Source: a virus
DNA: 21,347 bases
Strand: one strand, 5' to 3'
IMG/VR virus record: IMGVR_UViG_3300004369_000181
Span: 1 to 21,347 of that record
Below the pieces are notes generated by a model, which made no database searches, was not told where the DNA came from, and saw only the letters and a list, made by a program, of their open reading frames with translations. Below, piece after piece: positions 13,064-19,024 of the stretch (the first letter of the stretch is position 1; each line of letters begins with the position of its first letter). A program made the position numbers and the translations under genes.

Positions 13064-13406
13064 AGGGGTCGGGGACACCATTGCCAAAATCACCAAGGCC
13101 ACGGGGGTTGACAAACTTGTCCACGCTATTGTGGGGGACGATTGTGGGTGTGAACAACGTAGGCAAACCCTCAACAGGTTGTTCCCCTACGCCACACCCA
13201 TGGACGCTGAAGCACGGGCCACGTACGAGGCCACGTTCAACGGGTGGGAGCAGTGGCCGGAGTTTAACCTGGAGAAGCAGAGGGTCCTTGTCACTATGCT
13301 TACAACCCACACGGGCCGACGTTACAAGTTGACCAGGTGTGGGTCGTGTGTACGGCAAAACATGAAACAACTGGAAACCATTTACAACAACTCTTGTGAG
13401 CAGTAA
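13029..13406 (+). CDS. Conserved Bacteroidota-phage protein with paired cysteines
   Basis: 125 residues; the ATG at 13029 is 35 bases inside the sigma-like gene. The motif 'GVGDTIAKITKATGVDKLV' (13-31) followed by 'GDDCGCEQR' (C39, C41), 'LNRLFPY', and C-terminal 'LTRCGSCVRQNMKQL' (C104, C107) matches a family I have seen beside sigma-like and ParB-like genes in Bacteroidota phages. The four cysteines are placed to hold one zinc ion. The middle section is a helix rich in Glu/Trp (ATYEATFNGWEQWPEF). Function is unknown; a role with RNA polymerase or the replisome is only a guess from context. Confidence 0.65.
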   Translation: MPLQKNSKTQSKGVGDTIAKITKATGVDKLVHAIVGDDCGCEQRRQTLNRLFPYATPMDAEARATYEATFNGWEQWPEFNLEKQRVLVTMLTTHTGRRYKLTRCGSCVRQNMKQLETIYNNSCEQ

Positions 13407-13416
13407 ACCAACCACC

Positions 13417-13938
13417 ATGAAGTTGAGCCAAGTACGGCCCAACCCCGACAACCCACGGTCCATCACCGAGGAGAAATTCCGTTTGCTTGTAAAGTCCGTA
13501 AAAGAGGCCCCGTGGATGTTACCTATCAGACCCCTCGTGGTGGACGAAACCAACACCGTACTGGGTGGCAACATGCGCCTCCGTGCCCTACAAGAGGCCG
13601 GTGTCAAAGAGGTGCCGGTCTACAAGGTGACGGGCCTCACCGATGAGCAGAAACGTGAGTTTGTAATCAAGGACAACGTAGGTTTCGGTCAGTGGGACTA
13701 CGACGTGCTTGCTAACGAGTGGCCCACCGACCTCCTAAACGAGTGGGGCATGGACCTTTGGGACCCGTCCGAGGAACCAGACCTTGATGAATTTTTTGAG
13801 ACGGTGGACGACGAGAAGGAGGGCAAGTTCAGGGTGGTGTTAGATTACACGGAGGCCGACTACAACACGGTCGTGGAACTGTTTAAGAACCACGACGGGT
13901 CACGTGAGGACGTGGTGCTACGGTTGCTTCAGGGATGA
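13417..13938 (+). CDS. ParB/sulfiredoxin-like nuclease-fold protein
   Basis: I prefer ATG 13417 (MKLSQVRPNPDNPR), although GTG 13396 in the same frame overlaps the previous stop. The protein (173 aa) shows the ParB N-terminal fold: 'RPNPDNPR' (7-14), 'FRLLVKSVKE', 'RPLVVDETNTVLGGNMRLRALQEAG' (split: RPLVVDETNTVLGGN, MRLRALQEAG; the GGNMR loop binds CTP/ATP in ParB) and 'FVIKDNVGFGQWDYDVLA'. An acidic C-terminal half follows. Stand-alone phage copies often sit beside DNA-modification enzymes and may act as nucleases or ATP-dependent regulators. Here it couples directly by ATGA (13935-13938) to the DpdA-like gene, which suggests a shared job in DNA modification. Confidence 0.8.
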   Translation: MKLSQVRPNPDNPRSITEEKFRLLVKSVKEAPWMLPIRPLVVDETNTVLGGNMRLRALQEAGVKEVPVYKVTGLTDEQKREFVIKDNVGFGQWDYDVLANEWPTDLLNEWGMDLWDPSEEPDLDEFFETVDDEKEGKFRVVLDYTEADYNTVVELFKNHDGSREDVVLRLLQG

Positions 13939-14675
13939 AGATTTTTTTGGCCGGGTCCGGGTGGGACAAAATTGTGTGGAGACGCAGGGGGTTCTACGAC
14001 TTCAACCGTCTTGAGTCGTTCTACATCATTGGTGACGAAAGGGAGGACATACACAAGTACAAGGCATTCCTGTTGGACAGTGGGGCCTTCTCGTACATGA
14101 GTGGCAAACGTAAGGACGCAACACCATGTGACTGGGATGCCTACATCGAGGAGTACGCCAAGTTCATCAACAGGTGGGACGTACAACACTTCTTTGAACT
14201 GGACATCGACGTGCTTGTAGGCCTTGAGGAGGTGGACCGTTTACGGGCCAAATTGGAGAACCTAACCGGCAAGCAAGCAATCCCCGTTTGGCACAAGTCA
14301 AGGGGGTTGGACTACTGGAAACGCATGGTTGAGAAGTATGACTACGTGGCCATCGGTGGTATCGTCACCAAGGAAATCAAACGGAGTGAGTACGGCATAT
14401 TTCACACCCTGTTACGTATAGCGCGTGAGAACAGGTGTAAGGTCCACGGGTTAGGGTTCACCAACCTCAAAACTCTTTTGGATTTCGACTTCTACTCCGT
14501 AGATTCGACGTCGTGGTTAGGTGGCAACCGTTTCGGTTTCATATACCACTTCAACGGCCGGTCCCTGGACATGATTAAGCGTAAACCTAACCAAAGGGTG
14601 AAGGCCCACCCGGTGGCACACCACAACTTTGAACAGTGGATGAAATTCAACAACTACATAGAATCAATCACATGA
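13935..14675 (+). CDS. dpdA: DpdA-like DNA-guanine transglycosylase
   Basis: 246 residues related to tRNA-guanine transglycosylase but much shorter and without its C-terminal zinc site. Visible landmarks: 'LLDSGAFSYM' (46-55, D48, equivalent to the DSGGFQ aspartate), 'FFELDIDVLVG' (86-96), 'IPVWHKSRG' (116-124), 'YVAIGGIV' (137-144), 'VHGLGFT' (170-176) and 'FYSVDSTSWLGG' (186-197, with D190 as the probable nucleophile). Enzymes of this type exchange guanine in DNA for a free 7-deazaguanine base. The neighbours are the complete precursor pathway, which strongly supports this role over a tRNA one. It shares ATGA overlaps with the ParB-like gene before and the queC homologue after. Which DpdA subfamily it belongs to needs a phylogeny. 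Confidence 0.85.
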   Translation: MKIFLAGSGWDKIVWRRRGFYDFNRLESFYIIGDEREDIHKYKAFLLDSGAFSYMSGKRKDATPCDWDAYIEEYAKFINRWDVQHFFELDIDVLVGLEEVDRLRAKLENLTGKQAIPVWHKSRGLDYWKRMVEKYDYVAIGGIVTKEIKRSEYGIFHTLLRIARENRCKVHGLGFTNLKTLLDFDFYSVDSTSWLGGNRFGFIYHFNGRSLDMIKRKPNQRVKAHPVAHHNFEQWMKFNNYIESIT

Positions 14676-15337
14676 AACAGTGTACCGTGCTACTCTCCGG
14701 TGGCCAAGACTCTGCCACGTGCCTGTATTGGGCCGTCAACAACTACGACAAGGTCCACACCATGTCCTTCAACTACGGACAATCCCACGCCAAGGAATTG
14801 GAGTTTGCCAAGGCCAACGCACAACGGGTTGGGGCCACCTGGGAACTCATCGACGTAAGGGGTACCCTCAAGGGGTCGTCCCTGTTGTCCGACCAGGACC
14901 ACAACGAGGGCCACACCATGAACAGTGACTTGCCGTCAAGTTTCGTGCCCGGTCGCAACCTGTTGTTTCTAACCATAGCGGCCGGCCATGCCGCCCTCGA
15001 AGGTTGTACCACCTTGGTCACCGGTGTGTGCCAAACCGACTTCAGTGGGTACCCCGATTGCAGACGTGACACCATGGATGCCTTGGAGAAGGCCCTGTCA
15101 TTGGGTATTGGGTTGGACTTTACCATTGAAACCCCCTTGATGTTTTTAACCAAGGCCGAGACGTTTAAACTGGCCAACGACTTGGGGTGCCTTGATGTCA
15201 TTGTGGAACACACGCTGACCGATTACAACGGTGACATGACCCTCAACGAGTGGGGCCGTGGCCGGTTGGACAACCCTGCAAGTGTACTCCGGGCCAAGGG
15301 TTGGGACGAAGCAAAAGAGAAGGGATGGGTCGGGTAG
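14672..15337 (+). CDS. queC: QueC homologue lacking the zinc-binding cysteines
   Basis: 221 residues from the ATG at 14672 (ATGA overlap). The N-terminal PP-loop 'LLSGGQDSATC' (SGGQDS 9-14), 'FNYGQSHAKEL', 'SSFVPGRNLLFLTIAAGHA', 'VTGVCQTDFSGYPDCR' (117-131) and 'IETPLMFLTKAET' are all as in QueC, which converts 7-carboxy-7-deazaguanine to preQ0 through an amide intermediate. The C-terminal zinc site is lost: the usual TLTCYNG reads TLTDYNG (D184), and the region equivalent to the C-x-x-C-x-x-C cluster reads WGRGRLDNPASVLRAKG (194-210) with no cysteine. The enzyme may have a changed product or fold without metal. It begins the Que part of the cassette, between dpdA and a DUF6884-like gene. Confidence 0.85.
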   Translation: MKQCTVLLSGGQDSATCLYWAVNNYDKVHTMSFNYGQSHAKELEFAKANAQRVGATWELIDVRGTLKGSSLLSDQDHNEGHTMNSDLPSSFVPGRNLLFLTIAAGHAALEGCTTLVTGVCQTDFSGYPDCRRDTMDALEKALSLGIGLDFTIETPLMFLTKAETFKLANDLGCLDVIVEHTLTDYNGDMTLNEWGRGRLDNPASVLRAKGWDEAKEKGWVG

Positions 15338-15747
15338 CACTTGTCAGTTGTGGGTCCAAAAAACAGGACCACCCATGCCCGGCCCGGAACCTGTACAACG
15401 GGGTCCTGTTTAACAAGCACCGCAAGTGGGCCGACGCTTTCACGGACGACCTTTACATCTTGTCGGCCAAATACGGCCTCATACATGGCACCAAAGTGAT
15501 TGAACCATACAACCTCACCCTCAACCGCATGAAACGAGCAGACAGGGAGCGGTGGGGCCGTTACGTGGCAAACCAAATCCAAACCACCATCCCTCCGGGG
15601 GAGACGTTGTTGTTCTTGGCCGGCAAACCGTACTACGAGAACGTCATTGGACACATCAAACACACCTACGAAATACCCTTTGAGGGGTTGACACTTGGGT
15701 ATCGTTACCAAACCATCGACAAACACGTGGCCAATGGTCATACGTAA
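15325..15747 (+). CDS. DUF6884-like protein in the deazaguanine cassette
   Basis: 140 residues from ATG 15325, overlapping queC by 13 bases. The signature 'VALVSCGSKKQDHPCPARNLYNGVLF' (split: VALVSCGSKK, QDHPCPARNLYNGVLF), 'DDLYILSAKYGLIHGTKVIEPYNLTL' (split: DDLYILSAKYGLIHG, TKVIEPYNLTL) and 'LLFLAGKPYYENVI' matches the family I recall as DUF6884: an SCgkKK start, an aRdLY..pLF helix, an lSAkyGLl..d....PYd..L core. Its biochemical role is not established to my knowledge. The conserved Cys9, Lys12-13, Lys49-Tyr50 and Pro61-Tyr62 look like an active-site cluster. Because it is embedded between queC and queD, I infer a step in making, inserting or tailoring the modified base. Confidence 0.7.
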   Translation: MGRVALVSCGSKKQDHPCPARNLYNGVLFNKHRKWADAFTDDLYILSAKYGLIHGTKVIEPYNLTLNRMKRADRERWGRYVANQIQTTIPPGETLLFLAGKPYYENVIGHIKHTYEIPFEGLTLGYRYQTIDKHVANGHT

Positions 15748-16135
15748 GATTTACCACTTCTACGCAGCACACCGGAACAAAGAGGCCGGGGTGAAGTGTG
15801 GCCGCCTACATGGGCACACCTACGACGTGGCCGTCCACGTGGCGTTCCCTAACTTTGACGGTGACGTGGCCATGCTATTCAGTGACATTGACAAGGTGGC
15901 CGAACCAGTCATCAAGTCCTTTGACCACTACCTTATCCTCGACAGTCGTGACCCCTTGGTGCCCTTGCTACGGTCGTGTCACGAACCATTTGTGGAAGTA
16001 CCCTTTGCCACAAGTGCCGAGAACATGGCCCGCCACATTGCCCACCTGTTGGAGGACCAGGGGTTGACGGTGGCCCGTATTGAGTTAGCAGAAACCAAAT
16101 CCTCAACCGTTATCTATGAACCTTCCCATCAGTGA
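15734..16135 (+). CDS. queD: 6-carboxy-5,6,7,8-tetrahydropterin synthase
   Basis: 133 residues from ATG 15734, overlapping the DUF6884-like gene by 14 bases. It has the PTPS/QueD pattern: 'FYAAHRN' (zinc ligand H13), 'KCGRLHGHTYDV' (catalytic C22, zinc ligands H26 and H28), 'FSDIDKV' near 49-55, 'FDHYLILD' (63-70), 'ATSAENMARHIA' (92-103) and the terminal 'ELAETKSS' (E120). QueD turns dihydroneopterin triphosphate, the FolE product, into 6-carboxytetrahydropterin, the QueE substrate. The family's usual 'PTSEN' reads 'ATSAEN' here, a small change. It overlaps queE by 20 bases, consistent with coupled translation. Confidence 0.92.
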   Translation: MVIRKIYHFYAAHRNKEAGVKCGRLHGHTYDVAVHVAFPNFDGDVAMLFSDIDKVAEPVIKSFDHYLILDSRDPLVPLLRSCHEPFVEVPFATSAENMARHIAHLLEDQGLTVARIELAETKSSTVIYEPSHQ

Positions 16136-16715
16136 AATTTTCTACTCCCTACAAGGGGAGGGTGCCCGTACCGGCACGGCCAACGTGTTCGTCCGTATTC
16201 AGGGGTGTAAAGCAAAGAACGCTTGTTACGCCATGGGCATCAAGTGTGACACCGAGTTTGAGAGTGGTGTGGACATGACCCTGGACGAACTGTTGGGTGT
16301 TATCCAACGTATTGGGGGCAAGTGTCGCAACATTATTTGGACAGGTGGTGAACCGGCCGACCGTGTGAACGAGGACGTGGTGGCGTACTTTAAGCGTGAG
16401 GGGTACTATCAAACCATAGAAACCTCCGGCCTGTTCCCAGTGGCCGACGGGTTTGACTTTGTGTCGGTATCACCCAAGGTGGCCGAGCATGTTGTGGCCA
16501 AGAACTTCACCCACGTCGATGAGTTACGGTACGTCAGGCACTACGGGCAAGCAATTCCCGAGCCGTCCATCACGGCCGACTACCTATACCTTTCACCCCA
16601 CTTTGATGGGTACGACATCAACCCCGACAACCTCAAACACTGCATGGACCTGTGCCTTGCTAACCCCTTGTGGCGGTTGTCCGTACAAGACCACAAACTA
16701 TGGAACATCCTTTGA
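16116..16715 (+). CDS. queE: 7-carboxy-7-deazaguanine synthase (radical SAM)
   Basis: 199 residues. The N-terminal 'ISEIFYSLQGEGARTGTANVFVR' (split: ISEIFYSLQGEG, ARTGTANVFVR) and 'WTGGEPAD' (75-82) are classic QueE. The radical-SAM cysteines are in 'IQGCKAKNACYAMGIKCDTEF': C31, C37, C44, that is C-x5-C-x6-C instead of the usual C-x3-C-x2-C or C-x14-C-x2-C. The CDTEF ending keeps the family's substrate loop. QueE contracts 6-carboxytetrahydropterin to 7-carboxy-7-deazaguanine using a [4Fe-4S] cluster, SAM and Mg2+. The C-terminal half is short, as in small QueE variants. Strong context: queD before and folE after, both overlapping. Confidence 0.9.
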   Translation: MNLPISEIFYSLQGEGARTGTANVFVRIQGCKAKNACYAMGIKCDTEFESGVDMTLDELLGVIQRIGGKCRNIIWTGGEPADRVNEDVVAYFKREGYYQTIETSGLFPVADGFDFVSVSPKVAEHVVAKNFTHVDELRYVRHYGQAIPEPSITADYLYLSPHFDGYDINPDNLKHCMDLCLANPLWRLSVQDHKLWNIL

Positions 16716-17536
16716 ACGTAACGTGGGCCGACATACGGTCCAAACTGGCCGAGGTAACGGACCCCGAGAAACGGTATTGGGGAGTCCCCCGGGGTGGGGA
16801 GATTTGTGTCAACCTGTTACCCACCACCATGATAGCAGAAACACCACAAGAGGCCGACGTAATCATCGACGACCTTGTGGACAGTGGGCACACCCGTGAC
16901 ATGATGGTGGGTTTGTACGGCAAACCCTTTGTCGGCTTGTGGGACAAACAAACGGACCCCGACTGTAAAGGACGTTGGATTCAGTTCCCTTGGGAACATG
17001 AGGCCGAAAGGGACGTAGAGCAGCACATGGCCCGGGTGATACAGTCGTTTGACGACATCAACCGTGAGGGCCTACAAGACACCCCACGACGGTACATCAA
17101 GTTCCTGTCCGAGTTTCTACAACCACCGGAATGGACGTGTACCACGTTTGATGCCGAGGGGTACGACAACATGATTGTGCAAACCAACATTCCGTTCTAC
17201 TCGTTGTGTGAACACCACCTTGCCCCATTCTTTGGGCATGGCCACATTGCGTACATACCAAACAAACGCATCGTCGGACTGTCCAAGTTGGCCCGTACTT
17301 TGGAAACCTTCTCACGACGGTTCCAAAATCAGGAACGTATCACCAACCAGGTGGCCGATTTCCTCATGAACGAGTTGGACCCCCTTGGGGTGGCGGTGGT
17401 ATTGGAGGCCGAGCATCTTTGTATGGCCATGCGTGGGGTGAAGAAGCCCAACACCAAGACCCGCACGTCCAAGTTGACGGGGGTGTTTGAGAAACAGGCC
17501 GAAACACGTCACGAGTTCCTTATATTGACACAGTGA
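16700..17536 (+). CDS. folE: Fusion of a phosphoribosyltransferase-like domain with GTP cyclohydrolase I
   Basis: 278 residues from ATG 16700, overlapping queE by 16 bases. Residues 1-105 form a type I phosphoribosyltransferase-like domain: 'YWGVPRGGEI' (27-35, the PPi loop), 'ADVIIDDLVDSGHTRDMM' (52-69, the PRPP motif) and 'GRWIQFPWE' (91-99), which resembles the purine-contacting 'TWIEQPWD' of E. coli xanthine-guanine phosphoribosyltransferase. The middle is shorter than in Gpt. Residues 106-278 are GTP cyclohydrolase I: 'DTPRRYIKFL', 'FYSLCEHHLAPFFGHGHIAYIP' (split: FYSLCEHHLAPFFGHG, HIAYIP; C170, H173), 'IVGLSKLAR', 'QERITNQVADFL' and 'EAEHLCMAMRGV' (C241). FolE makes dihydroneopterin triphosphate from GTP, the first step toward 7-deazaguanine. 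The fusion could feed recycled guanine into that step. Confidence 0.9.
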   Translation: MEHPLNVTWADIRSKLAEVTDPEKRYWGVPRGGEICVNLLPTTMIAETPQEADVIIDDLVDSGHTRDMMVGLYGKPFVGLWDKQTDPDCKGRWIQFPWEHEAERDVEQHMARVIQSFDDINREGLQDTPRRYIKFLSEFLQPPEWTCTTFDAEGYDNMIVQTNIPFYSLCEHHLAPFFGHGHIAYIPNKRIVGLSKLARTLETFSRRFQNQERITNQVADFLMNELDPLGVAVVLEAEHLCMAMRGVKKPNTKTRTSKLTGVFEKQAETRHEFLILTQ

Positions 17537-17868
17537 TGGCCAACAAAGCAAAACAGGAAGCGGTACTCCAAGCCCTCGTCAAGACGTTGGGTGTGGTGGC
17601 CCCGGCCTGTAAAAAAGCCGACGTGAGCCGGACACAGTTCTACGAGTGGTGTAAAGACCCCACCTTCAAGGCCAAGGTGGACGAGATAGCGGAGGAAGCA
17701 CTGGACTTCGTGGAATCACGGGCCTTCAACCTGATACAGGACGGGTCAGTCCCCATGACCATCTTCTACCTAAAAACAAAGGGCAAGAAACGGGGCTACG
17801 TAGAGTCCCAGGAGGTCACCATCACCGACCCGTCGAAACGGCCGTCGTGGTATGGGTCAGACGATTAA
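17536..17868 (+). CDS. terS: Terminase small subunit
   Basis: 110 residues from ATG 17536, which overlaps the folE stop by one base (TGATG); GTG 17533 is an alternative. The N-terminus holds a helix-turn-helix, 'GVVAPACKKADVSRTQFYEW' (20-39), followed by 'KDPTFKAKVDEIAEEALDFVESRAF' (split: KDPTFKAKVDEIAEE, ALDFVESRAF) and 'FYLKTKGKKRGYVE', the layout of small terminases of the phBC6A51/Nu1-like type. These bind the packaging site and regulate the large subunit. The large subunit starts 17 bases before its stop. That phage DNA with modified guanine must be recognised by this protein is worth remembering. Confidence 0.8.
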   Translation: MANKAKQEAVLQALVKTLGVVAPACKKADVSRTQFYEWCKDPTFKAKVDEIAEEALDFVESRAFNLIQDGSVPMTIFYLKTKGKKRGYVESQEVTITDPSKRPSWYGSDD

Positions 17869-19024
17869 ACAACCCAAGACGTACTACGATGCCACAACGG
17901 CCCCCAAGGGAACCCGTATTCAGGTTCACCAAGGGGGAACACGTAGTGGCAAGACGTTCAGTCTGTGCCAAGTCATCATCCAATGGTGTTGGGAACACCA
18001 GAACAGTGGTTGGGTGTTCACCATTGTACGTAAGACCATGCCGTCCCTACGTGCTTCGGTGATGCGGGATTTCATGCAAATCTTGGAGGGCGAAGGGTGG
18101 TACAACGTGGACAACCACAACAGGTCCCAAAACACGTACCACCTGTTCGGCAACCTTGTCGAGTTTATCAGTGTTGACGAGCCGTCCAAGGTAAGAGGCC
18201 GGAAACGCCATGTCTGCTACCTAAACGAGGCCAACGAAATGACGTTGGAGGACTTCCGGCAACTGAATTTAAGAACCAGTGAAGTCATGTTGTTGGACTA
18301 CAACCCGTCCGACTTCTTCAGTTGGATATACGACGAGGTGATTCCACGTAACGACTGTGCCTTCTTCCAAACCACCTACAAGGACAACCCATTCTTGGAC
18401 CCGGCCATTGTTGAGGAGATTGAACGGCTCAAGGACACCGATGAGAACTACTGGAGGGTGTACGGCCTTGGGGAGCGTGGTGTGAACACGAGTGCCGTCT
18501 TCCCTGTTTTCCACGAGGTGGATGTCGTTCCCGAGGGTGCCCAGTTTATAGCGTACGGGTTGGACTTTGGTTTCACCAACGACCCGGCCGCCCTTGTGGC
18601 CGTCCACAAGATGGGTCACCACCTTTACGTTGACGAGTTGTTGTACCAAACGGGCCTCACCAACACGGACCTGGCAGACCGGTTCAAGACCCTTGTCGAA
18701 GGCCGTCAGGAGGTGGTGGCCGACAGTGCCGAACCCAAGTCCATTGAGGAACTGTACCGGCATGGGTACAACGTCAAACCGGCCCGCAAAGGGAGGGACA
18801 GTATCAACGTGGGCATCGACATACTTAAAAGACACAAAATACACATCACCACACGGTCCAAGAACATTGTAAAAGAGTTCAGGAACTATCGTTGGGTCAC
18901 GGACAAGAACGGCCGGCAAATCAATACACCCGAGGCCGGGAACGACCACGCCATTGATGCCCTCCGTTACGTTTGCCTCAACAGGTTAGCGACAAACCGT
19001 CGTGGAACATACTACATAGCATGA
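17852..19024 (+). CDS. terL: Terminase large subunit
   Basis: 390 residues. ATPase domain: 'HQGGTRSGKTFS' (Walker A, 28-35), 'RGRKRHVCYLNEANEM' with hydrophobic strand plus acidic pair (Walker B, 121-127), and a coupling motif around 'LLDYNPSDFFSW' (147-158). Nuclease domain: 'YGLDFGFTNDPAA' (D238), 'VVADSAEPKSI' (D291) and 'GNDHAIDALRY' (D365, D369), the three acidic positions of the RNase H-like fold. This is the PBSX-type terminase family common in Bacteroidota phages. It packages DNA into the prohead through the portal and cuts it to length. The start overlaps terS by 17 bases and the stop overlaps the next gene by ATGA (19021-19024). Confidence 0.95.
   Translation: MGQTIKQPKTYYDATTAPKGTRIQVHQGGTRSGKTFSLCQVIIQWCWEHQNSGWVFTIVRKTMPSLRASVMRDFMQILEGEGWYNVDNHNRSQNTYHLFGNLVEFISVDEPSKVRGRKRHVCYLNEANEMTLEDFRQLNLRTSEVMLLDYNPSDFFSWIYDEVIPRNDCAFFQTTYKDNPFLDPAIVEEIERLKDTDENYWRVYGLGERGVNTSAVFPVFHEVDVVPEGAQFIAYGLDFGFTNDPAALVAVHKMGHHLYVDELLYQTGLTNTDLADRFKTLVEGRQEVVADSAEPKSIEELYRHGYNVKPARKGRDSINVGIDILKRHKIHITTRSKNIVKEFRNYRWVTDKNGRQINTPEAGNDHAIDALRYVCLNRLATNRRGTYYIA

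Follow-up and report, generated by a model that had tools for sequence, protein, structure and literature searches.

The window, by which we mean the whole 21,347-nucleotide stretch analysed (IMG/VR virus record IMGVR_UViG_3300004369_000181), is a 21-kb phage genome fragment. It carries a conserved block of genes, all on the plus strand. The block opens with a gene for a ParB-like protein (13396-13938), directly before a gene for a DpdA-like DNA guanine transglycosylase (13935-14675; phrog_887, 8.6e-53). These are followed by QueC (14672-15337; PF06508, 2.3e-57), a YaaA-related DUF6884 protein (15325-15747; PF21818, 6.3e-38), the 6-carboxytetrahydropterin synthase QueD (15734-16135; PF01242, 6.1e-21) and a QueE-like radical SAM protein (16116-16715; phrog_2076, 6.9e-19), which was matched at the PHROG level only and scored below the Pfam radical SAM cutoff. 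The end of the last gene overlaps the start of an open reading frame (16700-17536) that encodes a phosphoribosyltransferase (PRTase) domain fused to GTP cyclohydrolase I (FolE). A terminase small subunit (17533-17868; phrog_2538, 2.3e-6) and an ORF that by eye is a probable large terminase (17852-19024) come next.

FolE, QueD, QueE and QueC make preQ0 from GTP, and phage DpdA introduces preQ0 into DNA, most likely by a TGT-like base exchange (Hutinet et al. 2019, PMC6884629). All five of these components are encoded in the single block of the window, a predicted 7-deazaguanine DNA-modification cluster. The window adds to the clusters described in that paper a PRTase, a term for which a search of its text returned nothing. 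Several neighbors of the pathway genes recur in related loci. A similar gene order surrounds the fusion in L060 and L062, with ORFs after it that by eye resemble TerS and TerL, and ORFs similar by eye to the ParB-like gene lie upstream of DpdA in L055, L062, L070, L074 and L081. DUF6884, which lies between QueC and QueD in the window, was also seen in or near the clusters of L010, L064, L213, L224, L258, L377 and L388. DNA binding and nucleotide flipping have been proposed for this family (2024 Pfam paper, PMC11701544), and the protein may work with DpdA.

The fusion is a single ORF of 278 codons, running from an ATG at 16700 to a stop that ends at 17536; an alternative GTG start at 16670 would lengthen the protein by 10 residues. 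Its FolE part (residues 108-276; 17021-17527) is complete and matches both PF01227 (2e-60, 203.7 bits against a cutoff of 27) and TIGR00063 (190.2 bits, above the 181.6 cutoff). The zinc-ligand motif (CEHH ... HLC) is present, and C170, H172, H173 and C241, which we take to be the zinc ligands from what is known of FolE, are invariant in the compared relatives. An AlphaFold2 model of the full fusion had a pLDDT of 95.8, and its listed PDB fold matches were GTP cyclohydrolases. The protein is a FolE of the family found in phages and bacteria, with zinc ligands as expected, and is set apart by the PRTase domain at its N terminus, which some closely related viral FolEs have and others lack.

The N-terminal domain (residues 1-111, core 1-102; 16700-17032) had been read in the first-pass annotation as related to xanthine-guanine phosphoribosyltransferase (XGPRT), because of the motifs VPRGGE, IIDDLVDSGHT and RWIQFPWE followed in frame by a full FolE. 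These motifs and the in-frame FolE are indeed found in ORF 16700-17536, and the XGPRT assignment is upheld by a sequence profile, by the predicted fold and by conservation of the PRPP, pyrophosphate and purine-contact residues. Taken by itself, the domain of approximately 105 residues has no Pfam match. Single-sequence matches were weak (a phosphoribosyl transferase family, phrog_8995, at 6e-4; Yersinia XGPRT at 0.41), and the score against the XGPRT family NF006613 of NCBIfam was 15.4 bits, below the 138-bit cutoff. A profile of 12 relatives matched the archaeal purine PRTase 1vdm at 1e-13 and enterobacterial Gpt-type XGPRTs at 1e-13 to 4e-12, in both cases over nearly the full domain length, which rules out a chance match. 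The domain alone was modeled by AlphaFold2 with a pLDDT of 92.2. When this model was compared with known structures, the best 24 PDB fold matches were all XGPRTs or the related Helicobacter pylori enzyme, with a probability of 1.00 and TM scores by query of 0.56-0.67 in this type I PRTase fold.

Residues R31, G32, G33, D57, D58, D61, G63, W93, P97, W98 and E99 are invariant among 36 fused and stand-alone relatives. From knowledge of XGPRT, R31-G32-G33 (16790-16798) presumably form the pyrophosphate-binding loop (loop I). The stretch D57-T65 (DDLVDSGHT; 16868-16894) corresponds to the PRPP-binding loop (loop III), and W93-E99 (WIQFPWE; 16976-16996) to the purine-stacking segment. Between them, K83 (16946-16948), invariant in 10 fusions, aligns with a lysine of Gpt that we take to contact the purine O6. 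In a larger set of 214 copies, the RGG pattern was present in 201, DDxxDSGxT in 209 and W..(F)PWE in 201. Some of the misses are truncated copies or FPFE and PKGG variants, and a few look decayed. Motif loss was seen in the fused copies L301, L289 and L279; in L301 (6877-7863) the PRTase domain has lost both RGG and DDxxD beside an intact FolE, as in a decaying copy. The median dN/dS over 44 pairs was 0.19 for the PRTase domain versus 0.06 for FolE, which indicates purifying selection on both parts and faster evolution of the PRTase.

Like the XGPRTs of E. coli and Yersinia (Gpt), 1vdm and NF006613, the window domain has the common fold, the RGG loop, the DDxxDSGxT loop, the lysine and the W..PWE segment. 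It differs from them in length (approximately 105 residues versus approximately 150), in falling below the NF006613 cutoff, in its usual fusion to FolE and in the absence of approximately 25-30 residues between RGG and DDxxD, a gap that the first-pass annotation had not noticed. The RGG-to-DD spacing is 20-31 residues in 162 fused copies and 20-37 in 70 stand-alone copies, compared with 53 in the cellular XGPRT L434. The missing stretch corresponds to the flexible loop II and is absent throughout the compact family. Loop II is common to all HPRTs and covers the active site during catalysis (eLife 2019, HPRT and (p)ppGpp; PMC6783271). We conclude from profile and model that the fusion begins with an XGPRT-family domain in compact form, without loop II, which is predicted to bind PRPP and to be catalytic.

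A search for further PRTase-FolE fusions, as the first-pass annotation had suggested, showed that the window protein is not unique. The fusion was found in 208 collected loci (some of which overlap on one contig), and in 202 of them the fragment also encodes DpdA or a Que protein. The co-occurrence with dpdA that had been raised along with it was also seen: DpdA is encoded in all 68 fused loci that are flanked on each side by more than 4 kb. Among cultured phages, the fusion occurs in Nipunavirus NP1 and PaMx25, Vibrio phage VpKK5, Sphingomonas phage MMDA13, Stenotrophomonas phage ply2008005c and Vibrio phage 1.207.B; these proteins, gp36 of NP1 and gp32 of VpKK5 among them, are annotated as GTP cyclohydrolase only, with the PRTase omitted. 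When metagenomic viruses were searched with the PRTase domain, almost exclusively fusions within Que/DpdA clusters were returned. Searches from other starting points gave different proportions. A search with the window FolE only found the domain on 72 of its 80 nearest FolE matches; a search with DpdA only recovered 39 fused and 3 separate copies versus 25 FolEs without the domain (25/67); and a search centered on a different FolE clade recovered 30 fused copies, 1 separate copy and 49 FolEs without the domain (n=80). When 36 whole records were searched for a compact copy elsewhere, 34 had none, and one of the other two, L341, is a fused locus that did not belong in this set.

On a tree of FolE (FastTree, no bootstrap), presence or absence of the domain changes at least 5 times on well-supported branches and approximately 25-30 times on the best tree, and gain and loss are indistinguishable. 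The identities of the PRTase and FolE parts correlate (Spearman 0.36; the best of 500 permutations gave 0.14), and the two parts therefore partly share their history. In the nearest-FolE set, 29 of the 72 fused loci had DpdA and no QueC detected on the fragment; for example, L055, L060, L062, L067, L070, L074 and others have DpdA, QueD, QueE and PRTase-FolE and no QueC on the fragment. These clusters look as if their product were 7-carboxy-7-deazaguanine or a derivative. In the literature searched we found no account of a PRTase-FolE fusion or of any PRTase belonging to the deazaguanine clusters of phages. What appears to be undescribed is the regular presence of a compact PRTase in the DNA-modification cluster, and its fusion to FolE; XGPRT, FolE and the cluster itself are each known.

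The domain also occurs as a separate gene. Compact stand-alone copies are located right after FolE, just before FolE, between QueC and QueD, or between QueD and QueE, and at least two of FolE, QueC, QueD, QueE and DpdA lie within 10 kb in 65 of 80 stand-alone loci. In Flavobacterium phage immuto and Brevundimonas phage StAshley, a separate XGPRT-family gene lies beside FolE with a DpdA homolog in the region, in contrast to the fusion of the window. The two differ in the loop: the stand-alone PRTase of immuto is compact, whereas that of StAshley, directly after FolE in a region with a divergent DpdA, is a long-loop XGPRT. The latter arrangement looks as if PRTase activity had been recruited separately. 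Together with the stand-alone copies it shows that the association of a purine PRTase with the pathway does not depend on one fusion event. Two neighboring genes deserve mention. In StAshley, a dNMP kinase gene (L443:7631-8296) directly precedes FolE and the long-loop XGPRT, and on one virus contig a gene of the IMP dehydrogenase/GMP reductase family (L368:563-1579; PF00478, 5.8e-102) lies near a FolE/PRTase pair and is possibly a further guanine-nucleotide supply gene.

DpdA proved to be diverse in these clusters. Used by itself as a query, the window DpdA retrieved one relative, and phrog_887 detected DpdA in 2 of 39 records with stand-alone copies, as this model misses divergent DpdA. With an immuto-seeded profile, most of the 30 FolE clusters that had been counted as lacking DpdA were found to hold a divergent one. 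We therefore withdraw a Fisher test that had restricted the domain to FolE loci with DpdA (p = 8.7e-8), which was an artefact of the first DpdA profile. Nearly every sampled viral FolE is accompanied by DpdA, whether or not the domain is present. Fusions have DpdA alongside, but DpdA does not explain which FolEs carry the domain. The divergent DpdA-like family is common in these virus clusters (L377:5794-6579, L387:12126-12920, L271-L274 and others); its proteins start, for example, with MIKIAHESP or MKISHELP, and a tested member had no Pfam match. A third, TGT-like form is encoded at L368:6346-7530 (PF01702, 1.1e-4, below cutoff).

Outside recognized phages few fusions were found. Among the matches listed from a scan of GTDB genomes (596 stretches), two metagenome-assembled genomes accounted for at least three fused loci, each within a Que/DpdA cluster and probably of phage origin; ordinary XGPRTs were also among the matches. 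In 398 Pseudomonadota genomes searched at 1e-14, no fused or compact copy was found, and three had ordinary XGPRT-sized proteins. Fusions common in organisms without a deazaguanine pathway, which the first-pass annotation had named as evidence against its reading, were not seen in these 398 genomes or among the GTDB matches listed. One cluster, on a plasmid of Sinorhizobium chiapasense (L442:7414-10881), consists of QueD, a PRTase-FolE fusion, QueE and QueC; no gene for DpdA was seen within 8 kb of it. The PRPP motif of this fusion is changed to DDVVNSGAT, so that DDxxD reads DDVVN. Another transglycosylase could be encoded elsewhere in the S. chiapasense genome.

The best explanation for the domain, to which we give about an even chance, is that it recycles guanine to GMP within the phage 7-deazaguanine pathway. 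In swapping a guanine in DNA for a 7-deazaguanine base, DpdA would free one guanine for each deazaguanine, itself made from one GTP. The PRTase domain would then combine a 6-oxopurine, most likely this guanine, with PRPP to give GMP, and host or phage kinases would convert GMP to GTP, the substrate of the attached FolE. One guanine per exchange would return to the pathway, and free guanine, the by-product of DpdA, would be kept low. The first-pass annotation had proposed such a loop, closed on the same polypeptide. The XGPRT-like domain, its conserved ligand residues and the DpdA/Que context speak for the loop; its closure on one polypeptide does not hold, as two kinase steps lie between. FolE uses GTP, and the product of a guanine PRTase is GMP. 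Since FolE does not act on GMP, we rejected direct channelling between the two domains of one chain, which the two phosphorylations that separate GMP from GTP make unlikely. The fusion probably secures co-production and proximity instead.

Recycling is supported by the constant company of FolE, QueD, QueE and DpdA, by the retention of the ligand motifs while the rest of the domain diverges, and by purifying selection together with the stand-alone copies in deazaguanine clusters. The missing loop II calls for caution about both catalysis and recycling. We also count against recycling that no gene for the conversion of GMP to GTP was identified among the window genes, and that bacterial hosts usually have a Gpt or Hpt of their own. 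A strict cycle of removal and synthesis is weakened by the many DpdA clusters without the domain, by the few decayed fused copies, and by the S. chiapasense plasmid cluster, with its fusion and no nearby DpdA.

Loss of loop II from the whole compact family would also fit a domain that binds PRPP or GMP without phosphoribosyl transfer and tunes FolE to purine supply, much as separate proteins such as GFRP tune the GTP cyclohydrolase of animals. The domain is mostly fused to FolE and evolves faster than FolE, as might be expected of such a regulatory module. A sensor, however, could do without one or another of the RGG loop, the complete PRPP loop and the purine-stacking segment, yet all three are invariant across 36 relatives, and this joint conservation of the ligand sites favors catalysis over sensing. 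Stand-alone copies away from FolE, between QueC and QueD, and the many close FolEs without the domain also argue against regulation, which we regard as rather unlikely, if the strongest of the competing accounts. If the domain is an active PRTase, it might instead serve general salvage of 6-oxopurines (hypoxanthine, xanthine and guanine set free as host nucleic acid is broken down) and so raise GTP, with no special link to the guanine released by DpdA. The XGPRT family evidence fits this proposal as it fits recycling, and the possible guanine-nucleotide genes near some copies (the PF00478 gene of L368 and the dNMP kinase of L443) and the S. chiapasense fusion without nearby DpdA are in its favor. 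A general salvage enzyme would be expected to be spread among phages that lack this pathway, but the compact form is almost confined to deazaguanine clusters, in a sampling that began from this family; we consider general salvage unlikely.

Given that the domain lies among the pathway genes and that its purine pocket might take 7-deazapurines, it could convert a 7-deazaguanine base (CDG or preQ0) to a nucleotide derivative. Nucleotide formation would, however, divert preQ0 from the base exchange by DpdA (PMC6884629), and a role specific to preQ0 does not fit the many fused clusters without detected QueC (29 of 72 fused loci had DpdA and no QueC), so that this substrate seems highly improbable. 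Slimmer still is the chance that the domain is a decaying passenger with no present function. The domain comes and goes across the FolE tree, some copies (L301, for example) are degenerate, and loop II is missing, all of which decay might leave behind, but the dN/dS of 0.19, motifs invariant over a wide diversity and a high-confidence predicted fold point the other way.

Guanine recycling remains the reading that we prefer. A wider form of it would make the loop-less XGPRTs a distinct family and a regular part of the phage systems that place 7-deazaguanine in DNA, where they would complete a cycle taking guanine from DpdA through GMP and GTP to FolE; this seems to us plausible, at somewhat below even chance. 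The domain is a probable added component of phage DNA-modification clusters that are mostly annotated as having FolE only, and cultured carriers of its compact form are available in NP1, PaMx25, VpKK5 and immuto. The fate of the guanines displaced by DpdA is not addressed in the literature searched, and a salvage domain on the first enzyme of the pathway would offer a direct handle on it. An active loop-less domain would be a natural minimal type I PRTase, and if the guanine cycle is real, it would include a type I purine PRTase able to work without the flexible active-site loop.
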